A DNA stretch of 64,000 bases from Chlorobium sp. (GTDB taxonomy: Bacteria > Bacteroidota > Chlorobiia > Chlorobiales > Chlorobiaceae): positions 806,001 through 870,000 of the forward strand of contig SZXW01000010.1 in assembly GCA_005862285.1 (NCBI GenBank), in the 5' to 3' direction. Shown here in pieces: positions 23,924 through 41,195 of the stretch. The position numbers and the translations under genes are program-made. A model generated the notes under the pieces. That model saw only the letters and a list, made by a program, of their open reading frames with translations, was not told the origin of the DNA and made no database searches. Each line of letters starts with the position of its first letter. Positions within the stretch are counted from its first letter, which is position 1.

Positions 23924-24949
23924 ATGTCCCTGTCAAGGCTGAAAAGAATTGAATCATATTCCTCTCCCATTCTTCTTGTTATTTTTGTTCAGCTTTTCCT
24001 TCTGTTTGCTTCTGTTCCCACTTCAGTTTTTGCACAAGCCCGGCCTAAAAAAGCTACCCTTATAACCCTCTGGGTACCACAGGCACAATTTGCAGGATAT
24101 TATGTCGCTATTGATAAAGGTATTTATCTCAAACATGGTATCGATCTGAAAATTCTGAGAAGCGGTGCCGGTTACAACACATTTCAGACACTGAAAAATG
24201 GTCAGGCGGATTTTGCCGTTCTCTGGCTTGTCACAGCATTGAAAGAGCGCAGTGCCGGATCGAAACTTGTCAATATTTCCCAGACAGTTCAACGTTCATC
24301 GATGATGCTGATTTCAAAAAAGACAAGCGGAATTAACAGGCTTGAAGACATGAAAGGGAAAAAGATAGGTTTATGGGAAGGTGACCTTGCAATTCCGGCA
24401 CGTACCCTGTTTACAAAATACGGGATCAATTTCAGGGAAGTCCGCCAGTCGCAGACAGTGAACCTTTTTTTACGCGGAGGTATTGACGTGGCATCAGCCA
24501 TGTGGTACAACGAATATCATGTGGTTCTTAACTCGGGGATTGACGCCGATCAGTTGAACACCATCTTTCTTGATAAACTTGGTATGAAATTTCCTGAAGA
24601 CGGGATCTATACCATGGAAAAGACCCTTAAATCAGATCCTGAACTTGTCGATGAATTTGCAAAGGCATCGCTTGAAGGTTGGCGTTATGCGTTTGATCAT
24701 CCTGACGAAGCTCTCGATATCGTGATGAAATATATGCATCGGGATGAGGTTCCTGCAAACAGGAGCCACCAGAGGTGGATGCTGTTAAGAATCAAAGACC
24801 TTATGATGACAAATGGCGAACCGGGAAGATTCGGTATCCTTCAGAAAGACGATTATGATGCTGTATGCAAAGTGATGTTCCGTGAAGGTTTAATCAAACA
24901 TTATACCGAGTATTCCAATTTTTTCAAGGGAACCCATGCGGGCAAGTAA
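23924..24949 (+). CDS. NMT1/SsuA-like periplasmic substrate-binding protein
   Basis: A 341-residue exported binding protein of the NMT1/THI5/SsuA group, which captures sulfonates, nitrate, pyrimidine precursors or similar small molecules. The N-terminus is basic with a hydrophobic stretch (residues 18-37) ending in an A-x-A type cleavage site near VFAQA. The mature part begins with TLITLWVPQAQFAGYYVAIDKGIYLKHGIDL, the family's lobe 1 pattern, and has a glycine-rich LRSGAG loop and KKIGLWEGD. No cognate permease or ATPase of the SsuBC type is next to it. Instead its end overlaps by 14 bases the start of a Cache-SpoIIE phosphatase gene, suggesting it works as a sensor partner rather than only in uptake. 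Confidence 0.85.
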   Translation: MSLSRLKRIESYSSPILLVIFVQLFLLFASVPTSVFAQARPKKATLITLWVPQAQFAGYYVAIDKGIYLKHGIDLKILRSGAGYNTFQTLKNGQADFAVLWLVTALKERSAGSKLVNISQTVQRSSMMLISKKTSGINRLEDMKGKKIGLWEGDLAIPARTLFTKYGINFREVRQSQTVNLFLRGGIDVASAMWYNEYHVVLNSGIDADQLNTIFLDKLGMKFPEDGIYTMEKTLKSDPELVDEFAKASLEGWRYAFDHPDEALDIVMKYMHRDEVPANRSHQRWMLLRIKDLMMTNGEPGRFGILQKDDYDAVCKVMFREGLIKHYTEYSNFFKGTHAGK

Positions 24950-26876
24950 AAGCATCGTCATAAAGCTGATTCTCGTGATCATGCTTTCCTGCACGGTTAT
25001 TTTTTCAATAACTCTCAGTTACAACTATTACCGGTCCAGTGTCATCCTTGAAAAGGAACTCGAAAACAATGCCCGCAATCTCGCGCTCTCACTCGTAAAC
25101 AGAGTGGAGGCCGAACTCTTGTCTGTGTCAAAAGTCGCGGATGGCATGAGCCGTACGCTTGAAATCTGCAGATATGACAAGCAGAATATCCATTCACTGA
25201 TAAAAACCACGGTTGAACAGAACCCTTCGATTTACGGCTCCACTATTGCATTTGAGCCCTATGCATTTAACAAAACACGTCGATTTTATGCCCCCTATTA
25301 TTTCAGGGACAAAGGAACCATTCAGTTCAAGCCTCTCGAAGAGTCATACAATTATCTCCAATATATTTACTGGGACTGGTACCAGATTCCACGGGAACTG
25401 GGCAGAAGCGAATGGAGCGAGCCTTACTTTGATGAAGGCGGTGGAAATATTCTTATGACAACCTATTCGGTTCCATTTTATGAAGTCCATGATGGAAAAA
25501 AACGTCTGAAAGGAGTCGTTTCGGCTGATATCGGCCTCGAATCTTTGACGAAACTCATTTCCTCGGTAAAAATTCTCAAATCGGGTTATGCTTCTCTTTA
25601 TTCCCGGACAGGCATGGTTCTTGCCCATCCACTGAAAGAGGCGATCATGAATGAAACCATATTCAATATTGCAGAGGAACGCAAGGACCCGTTGCTCAGG
25701 GAATTCGGCAAAAAGATGCTTACCGGGGAATCTGGCTTTGTCCACTTCAAAAGCCTTACCGGAATTAAAAGCTGGATCTATTATGCGCCGATCCGTTCGA
25801 CCGGGTGGACGCTGACCGTTGTTTTCCCGGAAACGGAACTGCTCGAGAATGTCAGGAAACTCAGCTTGACGATGGCTGGTATAGGCATTACGGGAATTAT
25901 TTTTCTCACACTTACGGTGGCGTTTATAGCAAGTTCGATCACAAAGCCTTTGCGGCAGCTGGCAGCGGCTACCCAGGTTGTTGCTTCTGGAAACTTCGAG
26001 GTTGCTTTGCCTGATGTTCACACGAAAGATGAAGTTGGTATCCTGACGAATGCTTTTCAAATGATGACAAAATCATTGAAAGAATACATCAGGAACCTGA
26101 CCGAGACAACGGCAGCAAAGGAAAGGATTCAGAGTGAGCTGAAAGTTGCCGCTGACATTCAGTTGAGCCTGTTGCCACGAATATTTCCGCCATTTCCCGA
26201 CCATAACGATTTTGATATTTTTGCCCTCATGGATCCTGCAAAGGAGGTCGGTGGTGATTTTTACGATTTCTTTTTTATCGACAGGGATAAGCTCTGTTTC
26301 CTCATTGCCGATGTTTCCGACAAGGGAGTGCCGGCCGCACTTTATATGATGGTTACAAAAACACTTTTGAAATCAGAAGGACAACGGCTCGGAGATCCGG
26401 ATATCATTCTTTCCTCCGTCAATAATATTCTTGCCGTGGATGATGACAGCTGCATGTTTGCAACTGTATTTCTTGCTGTTCTTGATTTGAAAAATGGGGA
26501 AGTTCGCTTTGCCAATGCAGGCCATAACCCTCCTGTATTGGTCAAAGAACATGAAGTGAAATGTCTTTCTCTTCATACCGGATTTGTGATCGGGCCGATG
26601 CCGGATTCCTGTTATAAAACAGAAAAAATAACGCTGTCGCCGGGAGACATCCTGTTTCTCTATACTGATGGCGTAACTGAAGCAAAAAATTATGAAGAAA
26701 TGCTCTTTGGCGAAAAAAGGTTGATAGAATCACTCAATAAAGCTCCGACAGATTCGGTAAAAGAAATGATTTACAGCATCAGGGAAAATGTCAGGATATT
26801 TTCACAGGATTGTTCTCAATCAGATGATATTACGATGCTTGCCATAAAGTATAATGGCCCTGATGAAACAAAATAG
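24936..26876 (+). CDS. Membrane receptor-phosphatase: Cache - HAMP - SpoIIE (PP2C-type)
   Basis: A 646-residue signal transducer. A first membrane helix (residues 8-30), an extracytoplasmic double-Cache-like domain (about 35-300), a second helix (about 310-332), a HAMP linker (about 333-386), a helical segment ending in ADIQLSLLP, and a SpoIIE/RsbU-type phosphatase (about 430-640). The phosphatase metal residues are present: EVGGDFYD (D441, D444), ADVSDKG (D459), YTDGVTEA (D578) and SDDITML (D630, D631). Such enzymes dephosphorylate STAS-domain antagonists to release a partner. Both a STAS protein and an RsbW-like domain are encoded downstream, so the predicted substrate is in the same operon. 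Its start overlaps the binding protein gene by 14 bases. Confidence 0.92.
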   Translation: MRASKSIVIKLILVIMLSCTVIFSITLSYNYYRSSVILEKELENNARNLALSLVNRVEAELLSVSKVADGMSRTLEICRYDKQNIHSLIKTTVEQNPSIYGSTIAFEPYAFNKTRRFYAPYYFRDKGTIQFKPLEESYNYLQYIYWDWYQIPRELGRSEWSEPYFDEGGGNILMTTYSVPFYEVHDGKKRLKGVVSADIGLESLTKLISSVKILKSGYASLYSRTGMVLAHPLKEAIMNETIFNIAEERKDPLLREFGKKMLTGESGFVHFKSLTGIKSWIYYAPIRSTGWTLTVVFPETELLENVRKLSLTMAGIGITGIIFLTLTVAFIASSITKPLRQLAAATQVVASGNFEVALPDVHTKDEVGILTNAFQMMTKSLKEYIRNLTETTAAKERIQSELKVAADIQLSLLPRIFPPFPDHNDFDIFALMDPAKEVGGDFYDFFFIDRDKLCFLIADVSDKGVPAALYMMVTKTLLKSEGQRLGDPDIILSSVNNILAVDDDSCMFATVFLAVLDLKNGEVRFANAGHNPPVLVKEHEVKCLSLHTGFVIGPMPDSCYKTEKITLSPGDILFLYTDGVTEAKNYEEMLFGEKRLIESLNKAPTDSVKEMIYSIRENVRIFSQDCSQSDDITMLAIKYNGPDETK

Positions 26877-26947
26877 TGCTCAAGAGAATAAATATGATAT
26901 TTCCAGACTTGGCGGTAATCTTTTCTTTAAGGAAGTATGAAAGTAAA

Positions 26948-29194
26948 ATGAAAATAAAATTACGAATACTTGCAACTTTCATTACAGTCTGTAGTCTTAT
27001 TGCAGGATGTACTCAGGAGAAGCATTATATAAGAAATGTCAAGGATGCCAAGAATGCAAAAATAGGCATCACGACAGGCAGTACCATGGAATTGAGTGCA
27101 AAAAAAATATTTCCGAATGCAAATATTAAAAGCTTTGATGATATTATGGATGCCGTTACGGCATTGAAGTCAGACAAAGTGGATGCAGTAATCACATCTT
27201 ATCTTTCCTGCTTCAATGTTGTGAAAATGAACCCCGAACTGAAGTTTTTACCAGAAAAACTCGATAATGAAATTACTTCTGTTGCAGTCAATAAAGGTAA
27301 TCAGGAGTTTTTGCGTTCAGTAGATTTGATTATAGGTGAACTGAAAGCGGACGGAACAATATCCGAAATGGTCAAGCGATGGTTTAAAAGTGACTTGACT
27401 CCATATGTCGAAAAAAATATTCCAGTTCCTGACAAGGGGAAGGTTTTAAAAATCGGTGTCTGTGCTACAAGAGAGCCGCTCAATTATATTGATAAAAATG
27501 GAAAAGTGAACGGTTTCGATGCTGAACTGGCAAAACGTATTGCAGCCAGGATGAATCGGCCGGTTGAGTTTTTCAATATGAAATTTTCAGCTCTGATTCC
27601 GGCATTGAAATCAGGCAAGATTGACTTGATTATTTCCGGCATGTCCTCTACTGAAGAACGAAAAAAAAATATCGATTTTACCCAGCCGTATTTTCTCAAT
27701 TCCCAGGTCCTGCTTGTCAAAGACAGTGCTGCGCAGCAGATGAGCACTTTAAAGCTCAAGTCAGCCGATGATCTTAAAGACAAAAAAATCGGGGTGCTTC
27801 TCGGTTCTGTGTATGATACCTATGCACAGGAACATTTTCCCGGTGCAACAATTCTGCAATATAAATCACAGGCCGACGAAATTCTTGCGGTTAAAAAAGG
27901 AAAAATAGATGCATCCATTTATACTCAGGAAACATTGTATGAAGTGATGCAATCAAACAATGATATGGCATTCCTTGGAGATCCATTGTTATCGATACCT
28001 ATCGGGATGGGTTTTAATCAGAATGATCGTGAATACCGTGAAAAGTTCAATGAGTTTTTAAGTGAGATCAGAAAGAATGGAATATACGATGATATGTATA
28101 GACGGTGGATTACCAACCATGAATCATCGATGCCTGAAATAAAACATGCAAATACAAACGGAAATTTCAGTGTTGGTATCGTTTCCGATACAGGACTTCC
28201 ATTTGTAGCTGTCAGGAACAACAAGCTGGCAGGTTTCGATATAGAACTTCTTGAACGATTTGCAGCATACCTTGGAAAGGATATCAAATATCAGGATCTG
28301 GATTTCGGCAGTCTTATCGCTTCCGTAGCGACAAACAAAATAGATATGATCGGAAGTCCCTTGATGATTACCCCGGAGAGAAAGAAAAAGATTGCATTTT
28401 CAGATCCATACTATGATTTGCACGGCAGTGTTTTCGCTCTTAAAAAGAATATTGCGGTATATGGCGCCAACGAATCAGGAGAGCTGAGCCATCCGGTTGC
28501 AAAATTTTTCTCGGACCTTAAAGAGAGTTTCAACTCGAACATTATCCAGGAAAACAGGTGGGAGCTTATTGTAGACGGTCTGAAAATAACGATAATTATT
28601 TCTGTTCTTGCTACCATTTTCGGATCTCTGCTTGGTGGGGTTGTCTGCGCAATGCGTATGTCCCCTTCTTCAATCCTGAAAAATACAGCTTCACTCTACA
28701 TAACGATTTTACGTGGCACCCCTGTGCTGGTGCTTCTGATGCTCATATTCTATGTCGTATTTGCCTCCGTGAACATCGATCCTGTTATAGTTTCGGTTAT
28801 TGCTTTCGGCATGAATTTTGCCGCTTATGTGGCTGAAATCTACAGAACAGGCATTCAGAGTATCGACAAAGGACAAACCGAAGCCGGGATCGCAATGGGA
28901 TTTCCCCGGTATAAAACCTTTCTTTTCATCATTTTACCTCAAACCATCCAGCGTATTCTGCCGGTCTACAAGGGAGAATTTATCTCTCTTGTCAAAATGA
29001 CATCGATCGTCGGCTATATCGCCGTTCAGGATTTGACAAAAGCCAGTGATATCATTCGCAGCCGTACCTTCGATGCCTTTTTCCCGATTGTCATGATTGC
29101 CGTACTCTATTTTCTTATCTCCCGACTTCTGATGTTATCGATGGAATATCTGGAGAAATTGACTGACCGGAAAGTGAGAACCAAACAACTTTAA
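26948..29194 (+). CDS. Fused amino-acid-type substrate-binding lobes and ABC permease (lipoprotein)
   Basis: A 748-residue fusion. MKIKL with lipobox IAGC (C21) suggests a lipoprotein; ATG 26948 is chosen because an earlier in-frame start (26876) would add 24 residues before this signal. The periplasmic part reads as SBP_bac_3 pieces: a lobe-2-like segment (about 37-146), a complete binding protein (about 167-388; [18 protein letters not shown], then [12 protein letters not shown] and [10 protein letters not shown]), and a lobe-1-like segment (about 407-500; [33 protein letters not shown]). A HisM/GlnP-type permease follows (about 540-735) with the EAA-like loop [21 protein letters not shown]. 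The matching ATPase is encoded six bases downstream. Substrate is probably a polar amino acid or similar. Confidence 0.88.
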
Positions 29195-29199
29195 GAGAA

Positions 29200-30291
29200 A
29201 TGATTAAAATCGAACATCTTTCAAAAAATTTCGGAACTCTTTCTGTTCTCAAAGATATATCCATTGATATCCGTGAAGGTGAAGTGATTTCAATTATAGG
29301 TCCTTCCGGAACCGGAAAAAGTACTTTTTTACGCTGCATCAATCTGCTCGACTGTCCGGATGGAGGGTCAATTCATATCGAAGGAATCGATCTTCTCGAT
29401 CCGAAAACCAATGTTCCTAAAATCCGGCAGAAGATGAACATGGTGTTTCAGTCGTTCAATCTCTTTTCTCACCTTTCCATTCTGGAAAATCTTACGATTG
29501 CTCCAATCAAGCTTCTTGGTATGAATAAAATGGAAGCTGAACGAAAAGCCATTGATCTTCTGAAAATGGTAGGGCTTGCCGAAAAAGCCAGAAACTTTCC
29601 TGATGAACTTTCCGGTGGACAGAAACAACGGGTTGCAATTGCCAGATGCCTTGCCATGGAACCTAAAATCATTCTCTTCGATGAGCCGACTTCCGCATTG
29701 GACCCCACGATGGTCAGTGAAGTGCTTTCCGTGATTCGCAGCCTTTCAAAAAAAGGCCTGACAATGGTTATTGTTACTCATGAAATGGATTTTGCCAGGG
29801 ATGTATCGAGCCGTGTAATTTTTATGAATGAAGGTATCATCTATGAAGAAGGTCCTCCGCACCAGATTTTCGAAAATCCTCATAAGGAAAAGACAAAAGC
29901 GTTCATTTATCGGGTTAAGAGTTTCAATTATCATATTTCTTCACCTGATTATGATCTCTATGCAATGAATGCTGAAATCGAGGTGTTTTGCGAGAAGCAG
30001 ATCCTGCCCCGGAAGGTCAGGCAGAACCTGATTCTGCTTGTCGAAGAGACCCTGCAGCTTTATCATTCTTACCTGTCGAAGGTCTCGCTCGATCTCACTA
30101 TTGCCTACTCAGAGAAAATGGACAGTGTCGAGCTTGTGTTTGAAAGTACAGGTGAAGAGATTATCTTGATCAGCAGCGAACCTGGTACTGATGAATTCGG
30201 ATTGAATATCATAAAAAATCTGACTGAAGAAATCGGTTACCAGAGAATTCAGGATAAAAGCCGGTGTACCATGAAGTTGAAAAAGGTATAG
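29200..30291 (+). CDS. ABC transporter ATPase (GlnQ-like) fused to an RsbW-like HATPase domain
   Basis: A 363-residue protein. Residues 1-238 are a complete polar-amino-acid-type ATPase: Walker [10 protein letters not shown] (34-42), signature LSGGQ (137-141), Walker B IILFDE (157-162), H-loop His194. The usual family ends near 240-250 residues. Here a further 120 residues follow (about 243-363) with the pattern of an anti-sigma/histidine-kinase-type ATPase: [15 protein letters not shown] in the N-box position, a central strand SVELVFES, and [15 protein letters not shown] in the G2 position. The N-box Asn and the D-x-G-x-G box are not clearly kept, so kinase activity may be lost or altered. 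A STAS partner gene follows at once. Confidence 0.82.
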
Positions 30292-30344
30292 GTATCAAAT
30301 CTTGCCGGTTGAACTGTGATTTTCTTAATAAGCCTCTGATTCAT

Positions 30345-30680
30345 ATGATCTTGCAACACAATAAAAAAATGGAGGCTACCATTGTTGCACTGGAAGGAAG
30401 GATGGATGCAATTACCTCCTCCGATTACGAAATAAAGATGAAGGGCCTGATTGCTTCAGGTGAGAGAAATTTTGTGGTGGATTTCGAAAAACTCGATTAT
30501 ATCAGCAGTGTTGGATTGAGGGCTATTCTTGCAACTGCCAAACAGATACGAAGCAGGAACGGGAAATTTCTTCTTGCAAATGTGCATGGTTCGGTTAAGG
30601 AAATATTTACCATATCGGGTTTAGGGTCGATATTTCCTTTTTATGATTCGATAGATAGTGCAATGGCTTTTTTTGTCTGA
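30345..30680 (+). CDS. STAS-domain anti-sigma factor antagonist-like protein
   Basis: A single STAS domain of about 111 residues. It opens with ATIVALEGRMDAITSSDYE, the typical first strands, and carries the phosphorylation-site loop FEKLDYISSVGLRAIL, where Ser55 aligns with the serine phosphorylated by RsbW/SpoIIAB kinases. It ends with a helix ending DSIDSAMAFF. ATG at 30345 is chosen because it directly precedes the domain; an earlier ATG at 30264 lies inside the ATPase gene. In context it is the predicted substrate of the SpoIIE phosphatase and partner of the HATPase domain encoded upstream. No sigma factor gene is seen nearby. Confidence 0.88.
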   Translation: MILQHNKKMEATIVALEGRMDAITSSDYEIKMKGLIASGERNFVVDFEKLDYISSVGLRAILATAKQIRSRNGKFLLANVHGSVKEIFTISGLGSIFPFYDSIDSAMAFFV

Positions 30681-30759
30681 ATGCCGCTCTCATTCTTTTA
30701 TTTTGTCTTTTTTTTCCATTTCGTCGGTTTTTCAAGCTTTTCGAAGCATCAGGCTCAGA

Positions 30760-31143
30760 ATGATTCAACCCGGACAATATGATATAGGAATTGATATGGT
30801 CAATGTCGATCGTATCAGGAGTTCATATGAACGGTATGGCGAACAGTTTCTAAAAAAAATACTGACACCGGCTGAGTTGATTCTTTGCAGGCAGAAAGCC
30901 GATATGATACAGAGTGCTGCAGCTCGCTTCGCCGCTAAAGAGGCGATCTCGAAAGCGCTGGGATGCGGTATATGCCGGGATTTCACTTGGCATTGTGTGG
31001 AAATACTCAATGATCCTGCGGGAAGGCCTTATGCACATATGACAGCTCATATGAAGAAACATCGGGATATGTCGATAAAAATATCCCTGTCCCATGACCG
31101 GCACTATGCTGCAGCGATGGTGATTGTATCATGCCCCTCATAA
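30760..31143 (+). CDS. acpS: Holo-ACP synthase (AcpS-type 4'-phosphopantetheinyl transferase)
   Basis: A protein of about 127 residues that moves phosphopantetheine from CoA to a serine of an acyl carrier protein. It has the AcpS signatures: GIDMVNVDRI with the magnesium Asp near residue 10, and ARFAAKEAISKALG with the catalytic/metal Glu, plus the late ISLSHDRHYAAAMV strand. ATG at 30760 fits the conserved N-terminus and replaces a long non-conserved extension. It heads a cassette of type II fatty acid synthase genes and probably serves the ACP at 32551. Whether it is also the genome's only AcpS cannot be told from this window. Confidence 0.88.
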   Translation: MIQPGQYDIGIDMVNVDRIRSSYERYGEQFLKKILTPAELILCRQKADMIQSAAARFAAKEAISKALGCGICRDFTWHCVEILNDPAGRPYAHMTAHMKKHRDMSIKISLSHDRHYAAAMVIVSCPS

Positions 31144-31349
31144 TCACAGAATCAGAAAACCGCAGAATTATCGATAAAAGATCCCTGATAAAAACGTGAT
31201 AACATTCTTCTTTGCGATGGTTATCCGTTTTTTCATGCACATATCTATTTAAGTAAACGCAAATTCGTACATTTAGCGTTGAAATTTCAACTGACGGTTA
31301 ATGTGGTTAAAGACCATGTTTGGTTCTTTATAATTTTTCCTTTAATCGC

Positions 31350-31799
31350 ATGAGATGGTTGTTAATCGATAAGGTTCTTGAAATGAACCCGGGGAAGAAT
31401 GCAGTCGGTGTGAGGTGTTTTTCCAGATCCGAACTGTTTTTCATGGACCATTTTCCCGCCTATCCCATTGTTCCCGGTGTTCTTCAGATAGAGATGATAG
31501 CACAGCTTGGCGGCAAATGCATTGTCGCTTCGAATCCATCGTTTATGCCGGTACTGACTTCGGTACATCAAGCGAAATTCAGGAAGGAAATCTTCCCGGG
31601 AGATAAATCACTGGTATATGTTGACGTTGAAATGAGAAAATCATATTCCACTGCAAAAGGAAGGATCGAGGTGGAAGGTATACTGGTATCTTCAGCAGAA
31701 GTGATGTATGGCCATATCACTTTTTCTGAACAGGAAAGAAAAAAGGATGCGTATGCAAGGACGTTTTCCTCTGAAGTAACGACTATTTATGGTATATGA
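31350..31799 (+). CDS. FabZ-like 3-hydroxyacyl-ACP dehydratase (hotdog fold)
   Basis: A protein of about 149 residues with the hotdog-fold dehydratase motif: FFMDHFPAYPIVPGVLQIEMIAQLGG (residues 22-47). The His in H-F-P-x-x-P is the expected catalytic residue, and the helix following V-P-G-V is well kept. The FRKEIFPGD segment is the usual second strand motif, and a basic C-terminal tail is unusual. It would remove water from 3-hydroxyacyl-ACP to give trans-2-enoyl-ACP. ATG at 31350 starts right before the conserved core; an upstream TTG (31320) is possible. It ends four bases into the next gene. Confidence 0.85.
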   Translation: MRWLLIDKVLEMNPGKNAVGVRCFSRSELFFMDHFPAYPIVPGVLQIEMIAQLGGKCIVASNPSFMPVLTSVHQAKFRKEIFPGDKSLVYVDVEMRKSYSTAKGRIEVEGILVSSAEVMYGHITFSEQERKKDAYARTFSSEVTTIYGI

Positions 31800-32557
31800 G
31801 CAGAGTTGCCGCTACCAATGTTATCGTTCCCGGAATCGATGTCGCTGTCGGGTCTTTTACAAGTTCTTATTACGGAGAATCCCTGAGCATTGACAAGACA
31901 AGGGCGATCTTACTGGATGAAAGTGTATACAAAATATTGCCCGACAGGCGGGTACATCGTTCCATGAGCAGAGCTGCACTCCTTCTTTCTCTTGTCTGTC
32001 TGGAACTTCAGCCGTCATTGAAACCATTTCTCGATAGATCATCATTTTCAACCGGGATATATTGTGCCATTGAAAACGGACCGATTGATCTCTCCTCAAC
32101 TGTGGAAATGCTTCATGTTCCTGAGAGTGAATATGCCGAACAATACAGGAAAACCCACAATCCGAAAATGTTCCTGATGCAGTTACCCAATCTTGCCGCC
32201 GCTCAGATGGGGATATTTCTCGGAATTATGGGGCCGGTAAATGTTTTCAACAGTTCAAGATACGGAAGCATCCATGCTCTTGAACAGGCTGAAAAAGATC
32301 TTGCCGAAGGATATGTTGAGGCTGCACTGGTATGCAGCGCATTCAGTTTCGAGAATCCCCTGGTACTCGAACGTATTCGCAGGCAAGACCTGCAGGGCAG
32401 GGTTTTATGTGAAGGAGCTGCGGCCATGTTGCTCACAGCGGATGGAAATGTATCTGAATGGAAAGGTAAGGATGTTAAAAGTGCCGATTCCTATTTCGGG
32501 ATAAGTCATCAGTTAGTAATTCAAATTTTAAATACAGCAGGGGGGAAGCAATGCTGA
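31796..32557 (+). CDS. Ketosynthase-like protein lacking the active-site cysteine (chain-length-factor-like)
   Basis: A 253-residue protein related to the N-terminal half of beta-ketoacyl synthases. LPNLAAAQMGIFLGIMGPVN (about residues 130-149) is the usual lead-in to the nucleophile elbow, but where the cysteine should be the sequence reads VFNSSRYGS, with Ser154 at the Cys position. The later C-terminal histidine motifs are missing because the protein stops early. Cys-less ketosynthase partners act as chain length or decarboxylating subunits in type II polyketide and aryl polyene systems. The neighbouring complete ketosynthase (32844) is the likely heterodimer partner. Overlaps both neighbours by a few bases. 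Confidence 0.75.
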   Translation: MSRVAATNVIVPGIDVAVGSFTSSYYGESLSIDKTRAILLDESVYKILPDRRVHRSMSRAALLLSLVCLELQPSLKPFLDRSSFSTGIYCAIENGPIDLSSTVEMLHVPESEYAEQYRKTHNPKMFLMQLPNLAAAQMGIFLGIMGPVNVFNSSRYGSIHALEQAEKDLAEGYVEAALVCSAFSFENPLVLERIRRQDLQGRVLCEGAAAMLLTADGNVSEWKGKDVKSADSYFGISHQLVIQILNTAGGKQC

Positions 32558-32847
32558 CCGAACAGGAGTTGTTTGAAAAAATCGAGCTTGCCGTCCGTAC
32601 GGTACTGAATACTGAAAAAGGGCAGATCACCAGGCAGAGCATGTTCAAGACTGACCTGAAAACCGAAAGTATTGATTATCTCGATATCAGTTATGAAATC
32701 GAACAGCAAACAGGGATTGAACTGGATTTTACCGAGGCGTTACTATACATCACTGAAAATAAAGGTGCGGATGTAACTGATATTTCCGTTCAGGACCTTG
32801 TGGAATTCGTCATGCTTGCCGCCAGTAAAAAAGATTCCGGTAAGTGA
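32551..32847 (+). CDS. Acyl carrier protein
   Basis: A 98-residue acidic helical protein of the ACP family. The phosphopantetheine attachment serine is Ser40 in KTESIDYLDISYEIEQ, a variant of the usual D-S-L motif, placed at the start of helix 2 with acidic residues around it. The first helix (ELFEKIELAVRTVL) and the third (VQDLVEFVMLA) are also visible. It is somewhat longer than housekeeping ACP, consistent with a dedicated carrier. It overlaps the ketosynthase-like gene before it and the ketosynthase after it, so all three should be made together. Confidence 0.88.
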   Translation: MLTEQELFEKIELAVRTVLNTEKGQITRQSMFKTDLKTESIDYLDISYEIEQQTGIELDFTEALLYITENKGADVTDISVQDLVEFVMLAASKKDSGK

Positions 32848-34076
32848 AGACGGAGGTCGTTGTTACCGGTTACGGAATTTCCTCTCCTTTAGGAAATTCA
32901 ATCGCCGAATTTGAAAACAGGATGTTTGCCGGTGAGTCGGGTATTACGGACATTCGCGGGATTCTGGTGCCAAAAAACTTTCCCGTCCCTTTCGGGGCCG
33001 TGATCGATGATTCGGAAATACCATCATCAGAGGCATTTGGGTTAGGGTCCGGGATCCACTCGCCAGGAGGTCGCTATCTGCTTTTCACGCTTCAGCAGTT
33101 TCTGGAAAAGTTTCCTGAATCCATCGAGATAGACGGAATTGTGTTTGCCACACCGGCAGGCATTTATTTCGACCTTGTATACGATTCTCTTAAACATTAC
33201 AATCCGGAATGCTTTCTGTGGGATGAAATGCGGGCTGAGTGGATTGCAGAGATCGTTGCAGCCCGGCTTCAGGCGAGAGGAAACGGCAGCATTGCCCCTG
33301 AACATATCATTTCGATAAATTCAGCGTGTGCCGCCGGCAGTAATGCGATTGGCATGGCCTATCAAATGATTTCGACCGGCAGGATGCAACGATGTCTCGT
33401 CTGTGCTGTCGATTCGGGTGCCTGGGAAAGTCAGCTCATGAATTTTCATCTTCTCCATACCCTCACAACTGAAGATGTTCCGGCATCGAAAGCGAGCCGC
33501 CCTTTTTCAAAAAGCCGTGCAGGTTTTGTCAAGGGTGAAGCTGCAGCAGTTCTTCTTCTTGAATCCAGGCCGGCCGCAGAAGCACGGCATGCTGAAGTTC
33601 TGAGCTTCGTCAGTGGATATGCATTCACATCGGATGCATATCGATTGACCGATGGCCGGGAAGACAACCTCTGTGTTGTTAAGGCAATGGAAGATGCAAT
33701 TGCCGATGCCGGTATTGCCACGCACCAGATCGGTTATATCAATGCCCACGGAACTTCTACACTCCTTAACGATCGCCTCGAAACTCAGGCGATCAAAAAA
33801 GTTTTCGGAGACGCAGCATACCGTATTCCCGTCAGTTCGCTGAAATCTCAGATCGGACATTCCACGGTCGCTGCAGGTACGGTTGAAGCGATTGCATCCA
33901 TTCTCATGCTCCAGAGGCAGAAAATAGCTCCTACCATAAACCTTGATGATCCTGATCCGGATTGTGATCTCGATTATGTCACTGAAGGGAGCCGCGACGT
34001 TTCTCTGGAATATATTCTCAGCAACAGTTTTGGCTTCGGCGGTCAGAATGCCTGCCTTGTCTTTAAAAAAGCATGA
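32844..34076 (+). CDS. Beta-ketoacyl-ACP synthase (KAS II/FabF-like)
   Basis: A 410-residue complete condensing enzyme with the full catalytic triad: C162 in INSACAAGSNAIG, H302 in INAHGTSTLLND and H339 in LKSQIGHSTVAAG. It also keeps the C-terminal glycine-rich NSFGFGGQNACLVF. It elongates acyl-ACP with malonyl-ACP. Start is GTG at 32844, which overlaps the ACP gene by four bases. In the middle (about residues 60-140) the sequence departs from FabF, including GSGIHSPGGRYLL, which may reflect an interface with the Cys-less partner encoded upstream. Confidence 0.9.
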   Translation: MKTEVVVTGYGISSPLGNSIAEFENRMFAGESGITDIRGILVPKNFPVPFGAVIDDSEIPSSEAFGLGSGIHSPGGRYLLFTLQQFLEKFPESIEIDGIVFATPAGIYFDLVYDSLKHYNPECFLWDEMRAEWIAEIVAARLQARGNGSIAPEHIISINSACAAGSNAIGMAYQMISTGRMQRCLVCAVDSGAWESQLMNFHLLHTLTTEDVPASKASRPFSKSRAGFVKGEAAAVLLLESRPAAEARHAEVLSFVSGYAFTSDAYRLTDGREDNLCVVKAMEDAIADAGIATHQIGYINAHGTSTLLNDRLETQAIKKVFGDAAYRIPVSSLKSQIGHSTVAAGTVEAIASILMLQRQKIAPTINLDDPDPDCDLDYVTEGSRDVSLEYILSNSFGFGGQNACLVFKKA

Positions 34077-34082
34077 TGAAAC

Positions 34083-34847
34083 ATGGAGAAACGTCTCGCA
34101 CTCATAACGGGAGGCACCTCAGGTATTGGTCTTTCGGCAGCCGCAGCTCTGGCAGGTAGCTGTGATCTTGCGCTGGCTTATGCCCAGAACCATGAAAAAG
34201 CCGAAGAAGCTCTTCATCTTTTGAAGGACAAATGCAGCCGGGTACAAATCTTCTGCCGAAAACTCGATGGCTATGTATCCGCCAAGGAACTCTATGACGC
34301 TGTGGTGACCGAATTCGGAAGGCAACCTGAGATTCTGGTCAATTCCGCAGGAAGAATAAAAGACGGAATGTTTTTCCAGACAGATTTCTCTTTTCATGAA
34401 CAACTTCTTCAGGAGCACCTCCTTTCGACCATGGCATTGTGCCATCTTTCACTGAAATCAATGTATGGCAACCGGTATGGAAGGATCGTCAACCTCAGTT
34501 CGATCAGCGGTTTCTATGCCAAAAGGGGGCAGGTCAACTATGCTGCGGCTAAATCAGGGATCATTGGTTTTACCAGGACTCTCGCACTTGAAGTAGCGCA
34601 TCGGGGCATTACGGCCAATGTAGTGGCTCCCGGTCTCATCAGAACACCGATGACCACCGGTATTGTCAATTACCTCGAGCATGCTTCAGCTCGCGAAACC
34701 GGTAAGCATATACCTGCCGGTTTCATAGGAGAACCAGAAGACGTCGGTCCGCTTATTGCGTTCCTGTGCTCCAACAATGCCCGTTATATAACAGGAGCTG
34801 TCATTCCCGTCGATGGCGGCCGATCACTTGGAGATACCGGAATATGA
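34083..34847 (+). CDS. 3-oxoacyl-ACP reductase (FabG-like SDR)
   Basis: A 254-residue short-chain dehydrogenase. The NADP-binding loop is ITGGTSGIGLSAAA (residues 8-21), the N-S-A-G motif lies near residues 87-90, and the catalytic Ser-Tyr-Lys set is in LSSISGFYAKRGQVNYAAAKSG with the normal Tyr-x-x-x-Lys spacing. APGLIRTPM follows, and the end is ITGAVIPVDGG. It reduces beta-ketoacyl-ACP to the 3-hydroxy form. It begins six bases after the ketosynthase and its stop overlaps the next gene (ATGA). Confidence 0.9.
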   Translation: MEKRLALITGGTSGIGLSAAAALAGSCDLALAYAQNHEKAEEALHLLKDKCSRVQIFCRKLDGYVSAKELYDAVVTEFGRQPEILVNSAGRIKDGMFFQTDFSFHEQLLQEHLLSTMALCHLSLKSMYGNRYGRIVNLSSISGFYAKRGQVNYAAAKSGIIGFTRTLALEVAHRGITANVVAPGLIRTPMTTGIVNYLEHASARETGKHIPAGFIGEPEDVGPLIAFLCSNNARYITGAVIPVDGGRSLGDTGI

Positions 34848-35596
34848 AACACCTTCTGAACAAGGTTGCCATTGTAACGGGCGGAACGAGAGGAATCGGC
34901 AGAGCCGTATCTCTTGCACTTGCAGAATGTGGAGCCAGTGTGATTGCCCTTTATGCAAGAAGCCGGAAAAATGCCGAAGAGCTCGAAAAAGAAGCTGAAG
35001 CCAAAGGATTGAAAATAAGGACAATCCGTGGTGACCTGGCGCATGATAACAGTTATAACGAGATTATCATGCAGCTTCAGGAAACCTGCGACCATGTCGA
35101 TGTTCTTGTTCACTCTGCGGCAAGCGGTGTTCACCGGAAAGCGATGGAGCTTTCCGACAGACAGTTGAAATGGACATTCGAGATCAATTTTTTCGCCATA
35201 CACCGCCTGACGCGTGATCTTTTCGGGAAAATGGGCAAGGGCGGAAGCATTATTGGCATTACCTCCCCGGGCGGAACGCGAGTAATTCCCAACTATGCGG
35301 CGGTCGGTTCCACAAAAGGGGCCATGGATGCATTGTTCCGGCACTACGCATATGAGTTCGCTCCCCTCGGGATTGCTGTCAATCTGGTTTGCCCAGGACT
35401 TGTTATGACTGATGCGGCCAAAGCGCTTCCAGAGCTTGACAGGATGCTGAACATCACGCTGGATTATACACCAACCGGAAAACTGACTACGCCTGAAAAT
35501 GTTGCGGCTGTTGTAATATTTCTCACAACTGAGGCGGGTTCGCAGATAGCAGGACAGACAATTGTCGTCGATGGCGGTAAAACTCTGCTTGCCTGA
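34844..35596 (+). CDS. FabL-like enoyl-ACP reductase (SDR with Tyr-x6-Lys)
   Basis: A 250-residue SDR that looks like a second ketoreductase but fits enoyl-ACP reductase III (FabL). The NAD(P) loop is VTGGTRGIGRAV; HSAASGVHRKAMELS matches the FabL N-N-A-A-S-G-V block, and NYAAVGSTKGAMDAL has Tyr and Lys separated by six residues, the spacing typical of FabI/FabL enoyl reductases rather than the Tyr-x3-Lys of ketoreductases. The end GQTIVVDGGKTLL also matches. With the dehydratase and ketoreductase it completes a saturating elongation cycle. ATG at 34844 overlaps the previous stop. Confidence 0.8.
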   Translation: MKHLLNKVAIVTGGTRGIGRAVSLALAECGASVIALYARSRKNAEELEKEAEAKGLKIRTIRGDLAHDNSYNEIIMQLQETCDHVDVLVHSAASGVHRKAMELSDRQLKWTFEINFFAIHRLTRDLFGKMGKGGSIIGITSPGGTRVIPNYAAVGSTKGAMDALFRHYAYEFAPLGIAVNLVCPGLVMTDAAKALPELDRMLNITLDYTPTGKLTTPENVAAVVIFLTTEAGSQIAGQTIVVDGGKTLLA

Positions 35597-35657
35597 AATT
35601 GATTACTGATTGACCGATTCCGGGATATTCTGTCATTGTTTGAAAAATATCTCTTTT

Positions 35658-36344
35658 ATGATAGAAAAAGTTGTGGCGAAACTTGCAGGCGTTTCAAAAT
35701 ATTACGGAACGGGCGAAGGACGGATTACCGCCCTCGATCGTGTCGATTTTGAGGTAAACAAGGGCGATTTTGTAGTGCTTGCCGGTCTGTCCGGAAGCGG
35801 AAAATCAACCATGCTCCATTTACTGGGTTGCATTGACAAACAGGATGAGGGAGAGAGTTACATCGACGGAATTGATACGACCCGGATGAGCCTTGAGCAG
35901 CTGGCACCGGTCAGACTTGAAAAAATCGGTTTTGTTTTTCAGTCATTCAATCTTGTTCCGGTACTGACAGCTTTTGAAAATGTCGAACTTCCGCTTCTGT
36001 TCAAAGGTATTGATAAAAATACAATCAAGAGCAGAGTCAATGATATTCTCCATGAATTGGGGTTGCAGGAAAGAATGCACCATTTTCCGAGGGAAATGTC
36101 AGGAGGTCAGCAACAGCGTGTTGCTATCGCCCGGGCTCTTGTTACCAATCCTATCCTTATTCTTGCCGATGAACCGACGGCAAATCTTGACAGCAAAACA
36201 GGTGCCGATATTGTCAATCTATTAATCGAACTGAACCAGAAAAAAAATATAACAGTTGTTCTCGCTTCTCATGATTCTGTTGTCCTTGACAGAATAAAAC
36301 ATATCGTCAATATAAGAGATGGAAAGATTAATTCACATTCTTAA
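35658..36344 (+). CDS. LolD/MacB-type ABC transporter ATPase
   Basis: A 228-residue ATPase of the LolD/MacB/FtsE class. It has Walker [10 protein letters not shown] (about residues 41-49), the Q-loop [22 protein letters not shown] typical of this class, signature [15 protein letters not shown], Walker [13 protein letters not shown] and the H-loop ASHD. ATG at 35658 begins right at the family N-terminus. Partners in this cassette would be the FtsX-like permease at 37722. Members extract lipoproteins or lipids from the inner membrane or drive mechanotransmission. It follows the fatty acid synthase genes after 61 bases, linking chain building to export. Confidence 0.92.
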
Positions 36345-36425
36345 AATGGTTTTTTATAATTCAATCTAAAGTTAGATTTTCTGTGAAATTATGTATATAA
36401 GAGTGTTTTAAAAAATAAATAATAA

Positions 36426-37670
36426 ATGAATTACAGCTTTCAGACCGTATTATCGAATTTTAATGATGTACCATTAACACCTATTCCTCAACAAGATTCC
36501 TGTGATCTTTTAATGACGGGTATGGTAAAGGCTAAAGCAGTAAAAAACGGAATATCGACAGAGAAAGAGATTGGGAAAATTGAAAATAATATCAGGATGA
36601 AATTTAAGCTTTTCGCATTGTCGGAAGATGTGATAAAGCAGCGATACCTGGTTGTTTGGCCTGATAATTACAATTTAAAAGGAAAAATTAAAGTAATAGA
36701 AAACGGTAAATTTGTTGAACATGATTTATCAGTTCCGCTTTATGAAGAATTAGCAAAAAAACATACTAATCCAAATGGGGCTGATTTGGATAAAAGGATG
36801 GAGATTTATCGTTCAATTTCTGAACAGAAAATTCAGAATCTATATGAAAGCGAATGCCTTGAAAGGCCGGATCATATTATTCATGTAACTTCTTCCGGTT
36901 ATATTCAGCCGAATCCTGTGGATGTTTTCATCTCAAGGAAAAAATGGTATGATATTCATGTTACGAATTATTACAATAAAGCATGCAATGCTGCGATATC
37001 CGCAATAGAATCGGCACATGCTTTGGTTCGTTCATCAATGCTGGGGGATTGTGAGAAACCTAAGAAAAGAATTGATATTGTTCATTCTGAAATATTCAGT
37101 ATACATATGAAGATTTCGGATGATGATCCAGTAAATATAGGCTTGATCAGTGCATTCAGCGACAGTTTTATTAAGTATTCAATACGTCCGTATAATGAAG
37201 CTTTCCGAAATGAAATTCCCGCGCTTAAAATTCTCTATTTCAAGCATCTGTTAATACCGGATTCTTTAAGTCTTGCGGTATTGACAGTATCATCACCTGC
37301 ATTTAATTATATCATAGAACCTGTTAAATATTTTAAAAAGATTAGAGAAAATGTTAAAGTTTTTGTTAAAGAATTTTTTAAGGAAATCGGACTTGATTTT
37401 AAAACAATAAAAGATAACCTGATATTTCTTATACAACCATCAAGCATTCAAATTATCATGCAAATCGGAAAAGAACTCGGTTTGTCTGATGAACAGTTAT
37501 CTCTAAGCAAGGATAACCTTTATGAAAATGGTTATCTGACATCGAGTGCAATCCCGTTTATGTGTAAAAAAATTATCGATTCATCAGATATACATCCTGG
37601 TCAAAAGATTTTTTGTCTGGGATTTGCGTCTGGCGTGACGATTTCAGGAATGCTTCTCGAAAAGATGTAA
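36426..37670 (+). CDS. Degenerate KASIII/type III PKS-like thiolase-fold protein
   Basis: A 414-residue protein with a thiolase-fold outline. The putative nucleophile is C187 in YYNKACNAAISAIESAHAL. The C-terminal half ends KIFCLGFASGVTISGMLL, like the G-F-G-P-G-L-T end of chalcone synthases and FabH. However, at the catalytic His position the sequence reads IFLIQPSSIQII (Gln337) and at the Asn position YLTSSAIPF (Leu371). Decarboxylative condensation needs those residues, so it may be an acyltransferase, hydrolase or structural subunit. It sits between the ABC ATPase and permease genes. Its DNA is clearly AT-rich compared with both neighbours, suggesting separate acquisition. Confidence 0.7.
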   Translation: MNYSFQTVLSNFNDVPLTPIPQQDSCDLLMTGMVKAKAVKNGISTEKEIGKIENNIRMKFKLFALSEDVIKQRYLVVWPDNYNLKGKIKVIENGKFVEHDLSVPLYEELAKKHTNPNGADLDKRMEIYRSISEQKIQNLYESECLERPDHIIHVTSSGYIQPNPVDVFISRKKWYDIHVTNYYNKACNAAISAIESAHALVRSSMLGDCEKPKKRIDIVHSEIFSIHMKISDDDPVNIGLISAFSDSFIKYSIRPYNEAFRNEIPALKILYFKHLLIPDSLSLAVLTVSSPAFNYIIEPVKYFKKIRENVKVFVKEFFKEIGLDFKTIKDNLIFLIQPSSIQIIMQIGKELGLSDEQLSLSKDNLYENGYLTSSAIPFMCKKIIDSSDIHPGQKIFCLGFASGVTISGMLLEKM

Positions 37671-37721
37671 TATTATTTTTATTGATATCAGGTGTCAGGA
37701 AGCCTGAAAATAGCATTTTTT

Positions 37722-39014
37722 ATGAATCATATTAAGCTTGTAATTATTGCTTCCCGTAATCTTAAAAGAAATTCAAGAAGGACCCTTATTACGGTACTGG
37801 TATCGTCGGCAGGTTTTGCTGCACTCGCTATTGTCGGGGGGTATATGGATTTTACTTTTTTTGGTCTTCAGGAAATGACAATATGCAGAGGGTTTTCATC
37901 GAGCGGGGGAACCGGACATATACAGATTGTCAGAAAAGAAGCATTGACGAAAGAAGAGCAATATCCAATGGAGTTCGGTATAGCAGATAATGATATACTT
38001 CAGGAAACGATTAATAATTCAAACAAGGACGTTAAAGCAACGGTTCCCCGGATAGAATTCACTGGACTGATATCGAATGGAGAGAGAGCGACGTCTTTTC
38101 TTGGAATGGGAGTAAAGCCTGAGAAAGAGATAAAACTGATGAATTATTGGGATGACGTTTATAAAAATTCAAAAAAGAATGTTTTCCAGGAAGAGATGTA
38201 CAAGAGGCTTGCGATGTCTCCACAGAACGGAGTGCTTCTTGGTGAAAGCATGGCGAAAGCCCTAGGAGCAACAGTCGGTTCAACCCTGATGCTTATGGGT
38301 ACAACGGTTGATGGTGCCGTCAATGCAGTTGATGTAACGGTTGCGGGTATCATCAACAATTCCATGAAAACGGTTGACCGGTATTATCTCGTAACGAAAA
38401 TAGAGACAGCACAAAGCCTTATGCAGACTGACAAGGTATCGAAGATACTGCTCGTTCTCGATAATACATGCAAGACGGATGGGGTCCTTCCAGCGGTAGC
38501 ATCGAAAATCAACAGACCGGGAAACAATGCCGGGTATTCGGTCATACCATGGTACCAGCTTGCAGAATATTACCATTCGGTCAAGGATGCATACCGTATC
38601 ATTTTCGGTTTTACCGGTATCATTGTAGTACTTATCGTTTTCCTCAGCGCTGCCAACACCATGCTTATGTCAACCATGGAACGTGTCAGAGAAATCGGGA
38701 CACTGAAAGCAATGGGAATATCAAACAGATGGATCTCGATGATGTTTCTTTACGAAGGGTTATTCATAGGAGTGATGAGCATTGTGGTTGGTCTGCTGTT
38801 CAAAGAGATATTTACCTTGATTATCAATAATGCGAATTTCGAAATGCCTCCGCCACCAGGTATGTCTTCGACATACTTTCTGAAAATTTATCCGGCTTTT
38901 CATTTTTTACCATGGATTTCTTTATTGTTGATCTTCTCGACTACCTGTTCAGGTTTTCTTACGCTGTTCAAAATCAGAAAACTTTCAATTGTCAATTCGT
39001 TAACCCATGTATAA
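37722..39014 (+). CDS. FtsX/LolC/LolE-type ABC transporter permease
   Basis: A permease of about 430 residues with the four-helix MacB/LolC topology: one N-terminal membrane helix (about residues 18-40), a large periplasmic domain (about 45-285), then three helices near 290-315, 345-370 and 390-415. The MERVREIGTLKAMGIS segment after the second helix is the signature FtsX cytoplasmic loop that contacts the ATPase. ATG at 37722 is preferred; a GTG at 37692 would add ten residues. It pairs with the ATPase at 35658 and ends eight bases inside the next gene, a LolA-like protein. Confidence 0.9.
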   Translation: MNHIKLVIIASRNLKRNSRRTLITVLVSSAGFAALAIVGGYMDFTFFGLQEMTICRGFSSSGGTGHIQIVRKEALTKEEQYPMEFGIADNDILQETINNSNKDVKATVPRIEFTGLISNGERATSFLGMGVKPEKEIKLMNYWDDVYKNSKKNVFQEEMYKRLAMSPQNGVLLGESMAKALGATVGSTLMLMGTTVDGAVNAVDVTVAGIINNSMKTVDRYYLVTKIETAQSLMQTDKVSKILLVLDNTCKTDGVLPAVASKINRPGNNAGYSVIPWYQLAEYYHSVKDAYRIIFGFTGIIVVLIVFLSAANTMLMSTMERVREIGTLKAMGISNRWISMMFLYEGLFIGVMSIVVGLLFKEIFTLIINNANFEMPPPPGMSSTYFLKIYPAFHFLPWISLLLIFSTTCSGFLTLFKIRKLSIVNSLTHV

Positions 39015-39837
39015 CTATTTCAGCAGAGCCGTGTTCCGTAACATCGTTATTCTGACGATTTGCGCAGTTTCAGGCTTTTGCGCAGGAAACCATTGTCTTG
39101 GTGCAGTTGCTGGTAATAATACAGTGTCTCAGAGTAGTGTCGTCTCTGCTGAGGAGATTTTGAAAAAGGCGGATGAATTCAGATCTCCCTGGCCTGATTA
39201 TAACATGACGGCTACTCTTTCATACAAAAAAGAGGCTGTTGAGGAACGTGAAATCTTCCGGGTATTTGTTAAAAATCATGTCAAGACTCTGGTGAGTTAT
39301 ATCGAACCGCAGAAACAACGGGGGAATATGCTGCTTATGGTAGATGACAATCTCTGGTATTATGTTCACAAAACCCAGCGCCCCATGAGGATCACTCCGG
39401 TTCAGAAGCTTTCCGGGGGAGCATCATATGGTGATATCACCAAGCTTGACTGGTCAAGGGATTATTTGGCCGATAATGCCGGAACCGAGAAAATCGAGTT
39501 CAGGGACCGAACGTACGAAGCCTGGCATCTCAGGCTGACGGCCCGATCCAGAAGTGCCACATATCATACGGTTGATCTCTATATCGAAAAAGAAACTGGA
39601 TATCCCAGAAAAGCCGTTGTTTACCTCCAGTCTGGAAAAAAAATGAAAACCCTATACTTCTCGGGTTATAATATCAATGCAGGAAAAATGATGAATACAA
39701 GGATAGATTTTGTTGATCATCTTGCAGGAGACAGGGAAACTTCTTTGATTTTCAGTAAAGTCAGCGTCAGAAAATCTCCCGATTCATTTTTTCTCAATAC
39801 AAGCCTTCCATCCATATACAGCGAAGTTGTTTTCTAA
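39007..39837 (+). CDS. LolA-like outer-membrane lipoprotein-sorting protein (COG2834-like)
   Basis: A 276-residue exported protein. A signal peptide covers about residues 10-32, followed by AEEILKKADEFRSPWPDYNM and a beta-rich domain with PQKQRGNMLLMVDDNLWYYVHKTQRPMRI, the hallmark of the LolA-like family associated with FtsX/LolCDE-type permeases. The family has an unclosed barrel that carries an acyl chain through the periplasm. Overlap with the permease gene by eight bases and with a predicted outer-membrane protein gene next to it supports a transport route: inner-membrane extraction, periplasmic carriage, outer-membrane delivery. Confidence 0.85.
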   Translation: MYNYFSRAVFRNIVILTICAVSGFCAGNHCLGAVAGNNTVSQSSVVSAEEILKKADEFRSPWPDYNMTATLSYKKEAVEEREIFRVFVKNHVKTLVSYIEPQKQRGNMLLMVDDNLWYYVHKTQRPMRITPVQKLSGGASYGDITKLDWSRDYLADNAGTEKIEFRDRTYEAWHLRLTARSRSATYHTVDLYIEKETGYPRKAVVYLQSGKKMKTLYFSGYNINAGKMMNTRIDFVDHLAGDRETSLIFSKVSVRKSPDSFFLNTSLPSIYSEVVF

Positions 39838-39860
39838 ACATCAATAATTCCCGAAAGAGC

Positions 39861-41195
39861 ATGTATCATCATATCCTTTGTTTTCAAAAAGATAAACCAG
39901 AAAATGACTGGTTGTTCAGGTGCACAGCATTTTTTGTTTTACTGTTATCCATCGGTTTCTGCCGGACTGGACACGCAGAGGAACGGCCCGATTCAACGGC
40001 TTCAGCATTATCCTATTCTCTCCGGGTCGCAGGTGAAGCTGAGCATATATCGCTGAGTGATTCACGACTCAATCCGTCAAACATCCTGGATATGCCGGAA
40101 ACCAGGTTAGAGGCATTTACTATAGGAAATCTTAATTACAAGGTTTTGGGAGGAGTTTTCGAGACAGAAGTCCGGTTGGGTCACGAATATACTGAAGATG
40201 GCAGCTCAAATTCCGTGACAACCTTCGATATCAATCAGTTCTATTACCAGAAAAAATTTGACAATATCGGTTTTCTTGCAGGCCGCAAGAAAGTTCGCTG
40301 GGGAGTAGGTTATTCATACAGTCCGACCGACCTGGTTACGCAACTTAGAAATCCGGAAGACCCGGAAGACCGCCTGGGAAATGTTAAGGGATCGGATGTG
40401 TTTCAGTTGTCATTCAATCGGGAAAACAGCCAGGTAGATGTCGCATATGTTCCTTTGCTTGATTGGAGCTTCAATGGACCATTTGTGAAGAACAGCAGAC
40501 TGGCCATTAGATGGTACAGGCTTATGGATCCATATGATCTCTCCCTGGTCAGTTCAGTCGATGAAAACGGTAAATGGGCGGGCGGGTTTAATACATCGGT
40601 GACTTACGGGAAGGCGCTCGAACTGCATGCCGAATATCTTTATACATCATCCAGCAACAGACAGTACCCTGATACCTCCATCGATCCTGCCGGCTTTTCC
40701 ATCCCTTATTTCGAAGGACGTACAGGTGGTTATCACGAAATCCTTGTCGGCGCCCAGTATACTTTTGAAAACAATCTTAACATGACCCTTGAATATCTGT
40801 TCACCAGTGCCGGTTATTCGGATGAAGAGTTCAAGGCTTACAGTGCGCACGTCAAGTACCTGAATTCCTCATATCCAATGCCGGCACCAGACCTCTCCCT
40901 TGCAGGGCTCTATGAATCAGCATCAAACTTCGTGCTGCCGCTACGGACACATTATCTTTTTGCCCGTCTTTATCATCCAGAAGTTTTGCATACGATCGCG
41001 CTTGAAACGTTTAGCTATATAAGTCTCTGTGACGGCAGTGGCTTTTTTGTTTTCCAGCCGAAATACGAAAAGGCGAAAAATTATGAACTGTATCTGCGCC
41101 TGAAAAAATTCTGGGGAAAGAGCGGTTCCGAATTCGGGCTTGTACCTTACGATTTCAGTGCGGTTCTCGGGGTTTCTTTATTTCTCGGTTCCTGA
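39861..41195 (+). CDS. Predicted outer-membrane beta-barrel protein
   Basis: A 444-residue protein with an N-terminal signal-like helix (about residues 20-37, FVLLLSIGFCRTGHA) followed by repeated amphipathic strands rich in alternating aromatic and polar residues. Examples are NIGFLAGRKKVRWGVGYSYSP and ELHAEYLYTSSSN, and it ends with a strand finishing in GVSLFLGS. This is the texture of an outer-membrane barrel of the porin/DUF-type group seen next to LolA-like and FtsX-like genes. It is the last gene in the export cassette. No enzyme motif or family could be recognised. Confidence 0.75.
   Translation: MYHHILCFQKDKPENDWLFRCTAFFVLLLSIGFCRTGHAEERPDSTASALSYSLRVAGEAEHISLSDSRLNPSNILDMPETRLEAFTIGNLNYKVLGGVFETEVRLGHEYTEDGSSNSVTTFDINQFYYQKKFDNIGFLAGRKKVRWGVGYSYSPTDLVTQLRNPEDPEDRLGNVKGSDVFQLSFNRENSQVDVAYVPLLDWSFNGPFVKNSRLAIRWYRLMDPYDLSLVSSVDENGKWAGGFNTSVTYGKALELHAEYLYTSSSNRQYPDTSIDPAGFSIPYFEGRTGGYHEILVGAQYTFENNLNMTLEYLFTSAGYSDEEFKAYSAHVKYLNSSYPMPAPDLSLAGLYESASNFVLPLRTHYLFARLYHPEVLHTIALETFSYISLCDGSGFFVFQPKYEKAKNYELYLRLKKFWGKSGSEFGLVPYDFSAVLGVSLFLGS

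Follow-up and report, generated by a model that had tools for sequence, protein, structure and literature searches.

A putative partner-switching module with an amino-acid-type ABC importer as its output in a Chlorobium-like genome

The stretch of DNA analyzed here, called the window, comprises 64,000 nucleotides from a Chlorobium sp. genome (positions 806,001 to 870,000 of contig SZXW01000010.1). At positions 23924-30680 of the window, five consecutive plus-strand genes form one operon in which the genes of an ATP-binding cassette (ABC) importer stand next to a SpoIIE-type phosphatase and a STAS protein. The genome carrying the window (G000) is Chlorobium-like and 2.6 Mb in size. Its nearest match is a Chlorobiaceae metagenome-assembled genome (MAG; L079), with ATPase tails that are 93% identical. 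A preliminary description of the locus had proposed a single operon of five genes with named domains, all of which were confirmed. The features are as follows.

23924..24949, plus strand: NMT1/SsuA-like periplasmic binding protein (Pfam NMT1, 3.4e-40), which is also the first gene of the full operon in relatives
24936..26876, plus strand: Cache(PDC)-HAMP-SpoIIE PP2C-type phosphatase with a SiaA-like layout (Pfam SpoIIE, 6.3e-49)
26876..29194, plus strand: amino-acid-type ABC permease (BPD_transp_1) carrying three fused SBP_bac_3 stretches (Pfam)
29200..29904, plus strand: ABC ATPase domain, GlnQ/ArtP-like, residues 1-235 (Pfam ABC_tran, 2.8e-36)
29911..30291, plus strand: degenerate RsbW/SpoIIAB-fold tail, a putative pseudokinase, residues ~238-363 of the ATPase protein (AlphaFold2, Foldseek, hhalign)
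30345..30680, plus strand: STAS protein of the anti-sigma-antagonist type (Pfam, 3e-18; TIGR00377 above cut-off; family alignment)
30681..30759, plus strand: slot of the intact RsbW-type kinase gene in relatives, here empty (79 bp up to the AcpS start codon)

The NMT1 and SpoIIE genes overlap by 14 bases, exactly 24936-24949, as had been described. Between the SpoIIE and permease genes the overlap is 1 base, and the permease and ATPase genes are separated by a 5-base gap (29195-29199) rather than by the six bases first given. The STAS reading frame is open from GTG 30264, and its start is probably ATG 30345, which matches the starts of other family members. With this start, a gap of ~53 bases follows the ATPase gene and the two do not overlap.

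The sensor part of the SpoIIE protein was assigned by Pfam to a PDC/dCache domain like that of methyl-accepting chemotaxis proteins, followed by HAMP, and the metal-binding motifs of the phosphatase (GGDFYD, DVSDKG, and SDD) are all present in its sequence. The NCBIfam SiaA model also matches this protein (4.5e-27), below its cut-off. The fusion of substrate-binding protein (SBP) and permease is matched above cut-off by both NCBIfam models TIGR01096 and HEQRo_perm_3TM, and Foldseek aligned the ATPase domain with ArtP (2olj) at an E-value of 3e-34 and 59% identity. Based on the presence of SBP_bac_3, a HEQRo-type permease, and a GlnQ-like ATPase, the transport genes are assigned by sequence to a polar amino-acid ABC importer. 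Among the five operon proteins Pfam gave neither an MCE nor an MlaE domain, the permease being BPD_transp_1 of the amino-acid type. This set of SBP, permease, and ATPase is similar to what is found in GlnHPQ and ArtPQMJI; here, however, multiple SBPs are fused to the permease, the ATPase has an RsbW-fold tail, and SpoIIE, STAS, and kinase genes belong to the operon.

The most striking feature of the ATPase is its C-terminal extension of ~125 aa. Although the HATPase_c_2 model matched the single window tail at only 13.3 bits (E 0.087), under the Pfam gathering cut-off of 27.4, it matched 27 of 39 related tails with a best E-value of 4.5e-5. Comparison by hhalign of the tail profile with standalone RsbW-type kinases gave a probability of 96.9% and an E-value of 1.3e-10. 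AlphaFold2 modeled the protein with a mean predicted local distance difference test (pLDDT) of 90.1 for the whole ATPase and 90.8 for the tail by itself, where the predicted topology is strand-helix-helix-strand-strand-helix-strand-strand. When this tail model was compared with the PDB by Foldseek, ranks 1-18 were exclusively SpoIIAB, RsbW, and UsfX chains (E 4.6e-6 to 7e-4; TMq at most 0.73), and the SiaB structure was a weak match. Foldseek with the whole ATPase as query returned ABC domains only, and the tail profile found no match when PDB sequences were searched, so that structure comparison alone succeeded there. From the predicted fold and the profile homology, the assignment of the tail as an RsbW/SpoIIAB-type domain is secure, as the preliminary description had supposed. 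An unrelated substrate-regulatory domain, which that description had named as the outcome that would speak against it, is ruled out by Foldseek and hhalign.

The same description had counted the tail as the kinase-like module of the switch. It is not the switch kinase, since the nucleotide-binding residues are missing in 86 of 86 tails. The N-box Asn and the G1 Asp are each present in 28/28 standalone kinases and in 0/86 tails, and the G2 Gly-Gly, likewise found in all 28 kinases, is mostly replaced in tails by Asp-Glu/Asp. In GHKL ATPases these active-site residues are needed for binding of Mg-ATP. A tail without them would not bind Mg-ATP and would therefore have no kinase activity, which rules out an active kinase and suggests a catalytically dead kinase homologue (pseudokinase).

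Tailed ATPases were collected from relatives together with 80 loci from a collection of genome contigs. As these loci were largely caught by two peptide patterns, the co-occurrence counts that follow are not a census. The tailed ATPase is found in at least six phyla, with members in Chlorobiota, Thermodesulfobacteriota, Pseudomonadota, Gemmatimonadota, Ignavibacteriota, Bacillota, and others. The order NMT1, SpoIIE, SBP/permease, ABC-tail, and STAS was also found in Chlorobiota, Geobacteraceae, Methylococcaceae, Nitrosomonas, and Nitrotoga, and its recurrence in three phyla (Chlorobiota, Thermodesulfobacteriota, and Pseudomonadota) shows that the association is not due to chance. In most loci with this order the sixth gene encodes an intact HATPase_c_2 (RsbW-type) kinase, the real kinase of the switch. 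It lies directly after STAS in Chlorobium, Geobacteraceae, and Burkholderiaceae, and is convergent, just past STAS, in Methylobacter, Nitrosomonas, and Nitrotoga. One genome, G060 (L061, L062), has two near-identical full operons at C1:983598 and C1:1189362, ~200 kb apart.

From these observations it was hypothesized that the operon encodes a partner-switch module with an amino-acid-type ABC importer as its output, in which dephosphorylated STAS docks on the pseudokinase tail; we give this an even chance of being correct. An RsbW-type kinase would phosphorylate STAS and thereby hold it off. Detection of a ligand by the Cache sensor, perhaps through the NMT1 binding protein, would lead SpoIIE to dephosphorylate STAS, and the unphosphorylated protein would then dock on the dead kinase-fold tail, altering the activity of the ATPase. 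The tail would thus act as a kinase-shaped receiver, with STAS switching partners between the live kinase and the importer and so gating uptake. The proposal builds on gene content, the fold of the tail, the loss of its catalytic residues, the conserved phospho-Ser, and the phosphatase motifs; from these we infer the binding of STAS, the direction of control, the ligand, and a kinase acting in trans. Gating of transport by the switch is plausible.

In the window, the STAS frame is intact and has the Ser equivalent to Ser58 of SpoIIAA (YISSVGL), a residue conserved in the family alignment. All three switch modules had been thought to lie at this locus, but an intact kinase is absent from the window operon. 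The AcpS gene starts at 30760, 80 bp beyond the stop of STAS, with no kinase gene between them, and no kinase remnant was found in this interval by tblastn. Further analysis of the genome revealed a paralogous operon (G000:C15) with a tailed ATPase (31969-33054), STAS (33077-33400), and an intact HATPase_c_2 kinase (33443-33817). This operon is without SpoIIE; when G000 was searched with the window phosphatase, the only SpoIIE match besides the query itself was a distant one at C1:124563. The two operons are therefore complementary halves: the window operon supplies phosphatase, STAS, and tailed ATPase, and the C15 operon supplies STAS and kinase along with a tailed ATPase of its own. The system may be split over the two, in which case phosphorylation of the window STAS would depend on a trans-acting kinase, and the C15 kinase could fill this role through cross-talk between the operons.

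The empty slot also fits a window copy that is decaying, its kinase gone, its STAS drifting, and its switch non-functional here, which would be compatible with partner switching in the family as a whole. In the sister species (L079), a truncated STAS remnant at 10380-10850 is followed by unrelated sequence and then by the same AcpS gene, which shows switch loss in progress. Moreover, the window STAS has ISSVGL where nearly all relatives have ISSAGL. However, the intact STAS frame with its Ser, the availability of the C15 kinase in trans, and a ratio of nonsynonymous to synonymous substitution rates (dN/dS) of 0.14 for SpoIIE between the window and L079, which indicates purifying selection, speak against decay. 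Decay of the window copy is thus possible, but we lean away from it.

The strength of the association was examined in 58 non-redundant tailed-ATPase loci with enough flank. SpoIIE, STAS, and kinase all adjoin the importer in 16 of them, SpoIIE and STAS in 3, SpoIIE only in 5, STAS and kinase in 2, and STAS only in 1. Fisher tests on the 58 loci, which ignore phylogeny, gave p 1.6e-11 for STAS and kinase and p 4.6e-8 for STAS and SpoIIE. In the tree-aware test of STAS and kinase, every informative pair pointed in the same direction. Among Chlorobiaceae, orthologues of SpoIIE and STAS were found only in genomes with the full operon form. The preliminary description would have been contradicted by homologous loci in which SpoIIE and STAS are never kept with the transporter; they are kept with it often and across phyla, although neither gene is present in over half of the tailed loci with enough flank. 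The presence of STAS requires 13 changes on the tree, at least 6 of them on well-supported branches. The switch was therefore gained or lost repeatedly, and counts alone cannot separate gain from loss. Separately, L132, L145, and L137/L148 (labelled Desulfobacteraceae, Geobacter, Sphingomonadales, and Kuenenia) were placed within or beside other groups in the tree, by either horizontal transfer or MAG misbinning.

Several results weigh against a tail that serves partner switching. In 31 of the 58 loci the tail has no STAS, SpoIIE, or kinase adjoining it, and in the tree-aware test the supported independent pairs numbered 4, not enough to reach significance. The tails of switch-free loci have dN/dS values of 0.10-0.23, indicating purifying selection, as compared with 0.07-0.16 for the tails of STAS-positive pairs and 0.02-0.09 for the ABC domain. 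The tail therefore cannot exist for STAS alone and, on these substitution rates, has one or more functions that do not depend on this STAS or switch. Tail segment 331-343, which corresponds to the former G2 region, has been maintained in loci with STAS and has decayed in STAS-free Chlorobiota, as if it served the switch, in a comparison confounded by phylogeny. This is contradicted by the C15-type paralogues, where STAS and kinase are present and the otherwise conserved (D/E)LGL motif of the tail is lost.

It follows that the tail could be an old regulatory or dimerization domain, co-opted from an RsbW-like protein and taking no part in partner switching, with SpoIIE, STAS, and kinase as a separate signalling unit that travels with it. 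Besides the number of switch-free loci and the selection on their tails, this would explain why no match to STAS or SpoIIE was found, at the thresholds used, in several switch-free Chlorobiaceae genomes, and why other genes flank the tailed ATPase in Geobacteraceae and Methylophilales. In Geobacteraceae a GH3 family glycosidase adjoins the tailed importer (L103, L119, L122 set), accompanied in L119 by an MR_MLE enolase-superfamily enzyme and in L103 by DUF819, a setting that points tentatively to substrate supplied by the recycling of cell-wall peptides. The tailed ATPase of Methylophilales is followed by a large protein; that at L112:4574-7795 is an SBP_bac_3-PAS-histidine kinase-receiver-Hpt protein, and that at L118:1452-4724 has an SBP3 match. 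A separate travelling unit does not readily account for the same six-gene order in three phyla, nor for segment 331-343 being kept with STAS and decaying in STAS-free Chlorobiota, and we consider it fairly unlikely.

The dead tail could instead dimerize or compete with the standalone kinase and so inform the kinase of the transporter's state, information passing from transport to the switch, in which case the target of STAS would lie elsewhere. RsbW-type kinases form dimers, the tail and the kinase are homologous by hhalign, and MalK-type ABC ATPases with regulatory C-terminal domains signal outwards. In addition, 26 of 27 downstream-complete loci fit a kinase that is almost never found without an adjoining STAS. 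However, the operon conserves no separate effector for STAS, and the tail persists without kinase and STAS, which makes reporting through the kinase distinctly improbable.

Partner switches are best known for sigma-factor control, with few enzyme outputs. The RsbU/V/W and SpoIIE/SpoIIAA/SpoIIAB systems share with the loci described here a SpoIIE-type phosphatase, STAS with its Ser, an RsbW-type kinase (in the full operon of relatives), and, in the tail, the SpoIIAB fold. They differ in that no sigma factor belongs to the operon here, a second, dead kinase domain sits on the transport ATPase, and the window is without a live kinase. In agreement with the preliminary description, no sigma factor was found among the annotated neighbouring genes. 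These include a fatty-acid/polyketide-like cluster directly after STAS (30760-41195) encoding AcpS, a FabA-like dehydratase, ketosynthases, short-chain dehydrogenases/reductases, an ABC ATPase, a chalcone/stilbene-type synthase, an FtsX/MacB permease, a LolA-like protein, and a 444-aa protein without a Pfam match. A CheB-CheR-PAS fusion protein of 999 aa is encoded at 56239-59238 on the minus strand.

SiaABCD of Pseudomonas aeruginosa is closer in layout, with a Cache/HAMP-SpoIIE phosphatase and a partner switch with a non-sigma output; its output, however, is a diguanylate cyclase and no transporter is involved (PMC7647112). A STAS label for its antagonist SiaC was not found in the text of that paper (PMC7647112). 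In MlaFB, the STAS protein MlaB binds and controls the ABC ATPase MlaF, and MlaB has Thr52 at the position of the phospho-site, its phospho-regulation being raised as an open question by the authors (PMC7367683). MlaFEDB thus also partners a STAS protein with an ABC ATPase. It is, however, an MCE/MlaE lipid system in which the ATPase MlaF carries no tail of the RsbW fold and is bound by MlaB itself, and neither a kinase nor a phosphatase is known for it, whereas here the tail, the conserved Ser, SpoIIE, and (in relatives) the kinase are all encoded with an importer of the amino-acid type. No paper on the exact combination was found in open-access full text, a search that left subscription papers and preprints outside. 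The building blocks are all known, and their combination is new to the open-access literature searched.

These loci may represent a widespread class of ABC importers under the direct control of a partner switch driven by phosphorylation. The transport ATPase would carry an inactive copy of the switch kinase that serves STAS as a decoy or receiver, and in this genome the switch would be divided between two paralogous importer operons cross-talking in trans. We rate this broader claim slightly short of an even prospect. Cultured species with such loci include Methylobacter marinus, M. tundripaludum, and Nitrosomonas communis. The question of phospho-control raised for MlaFB would be directly testable here, as STAS, kinase, and phosphatase are encoded beside the ATPase. 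If the proposal is true, partner switching would extend to nutrient uptake by way of an importer whose ATPase is fused to a pseudokinase version of the switch kinase.

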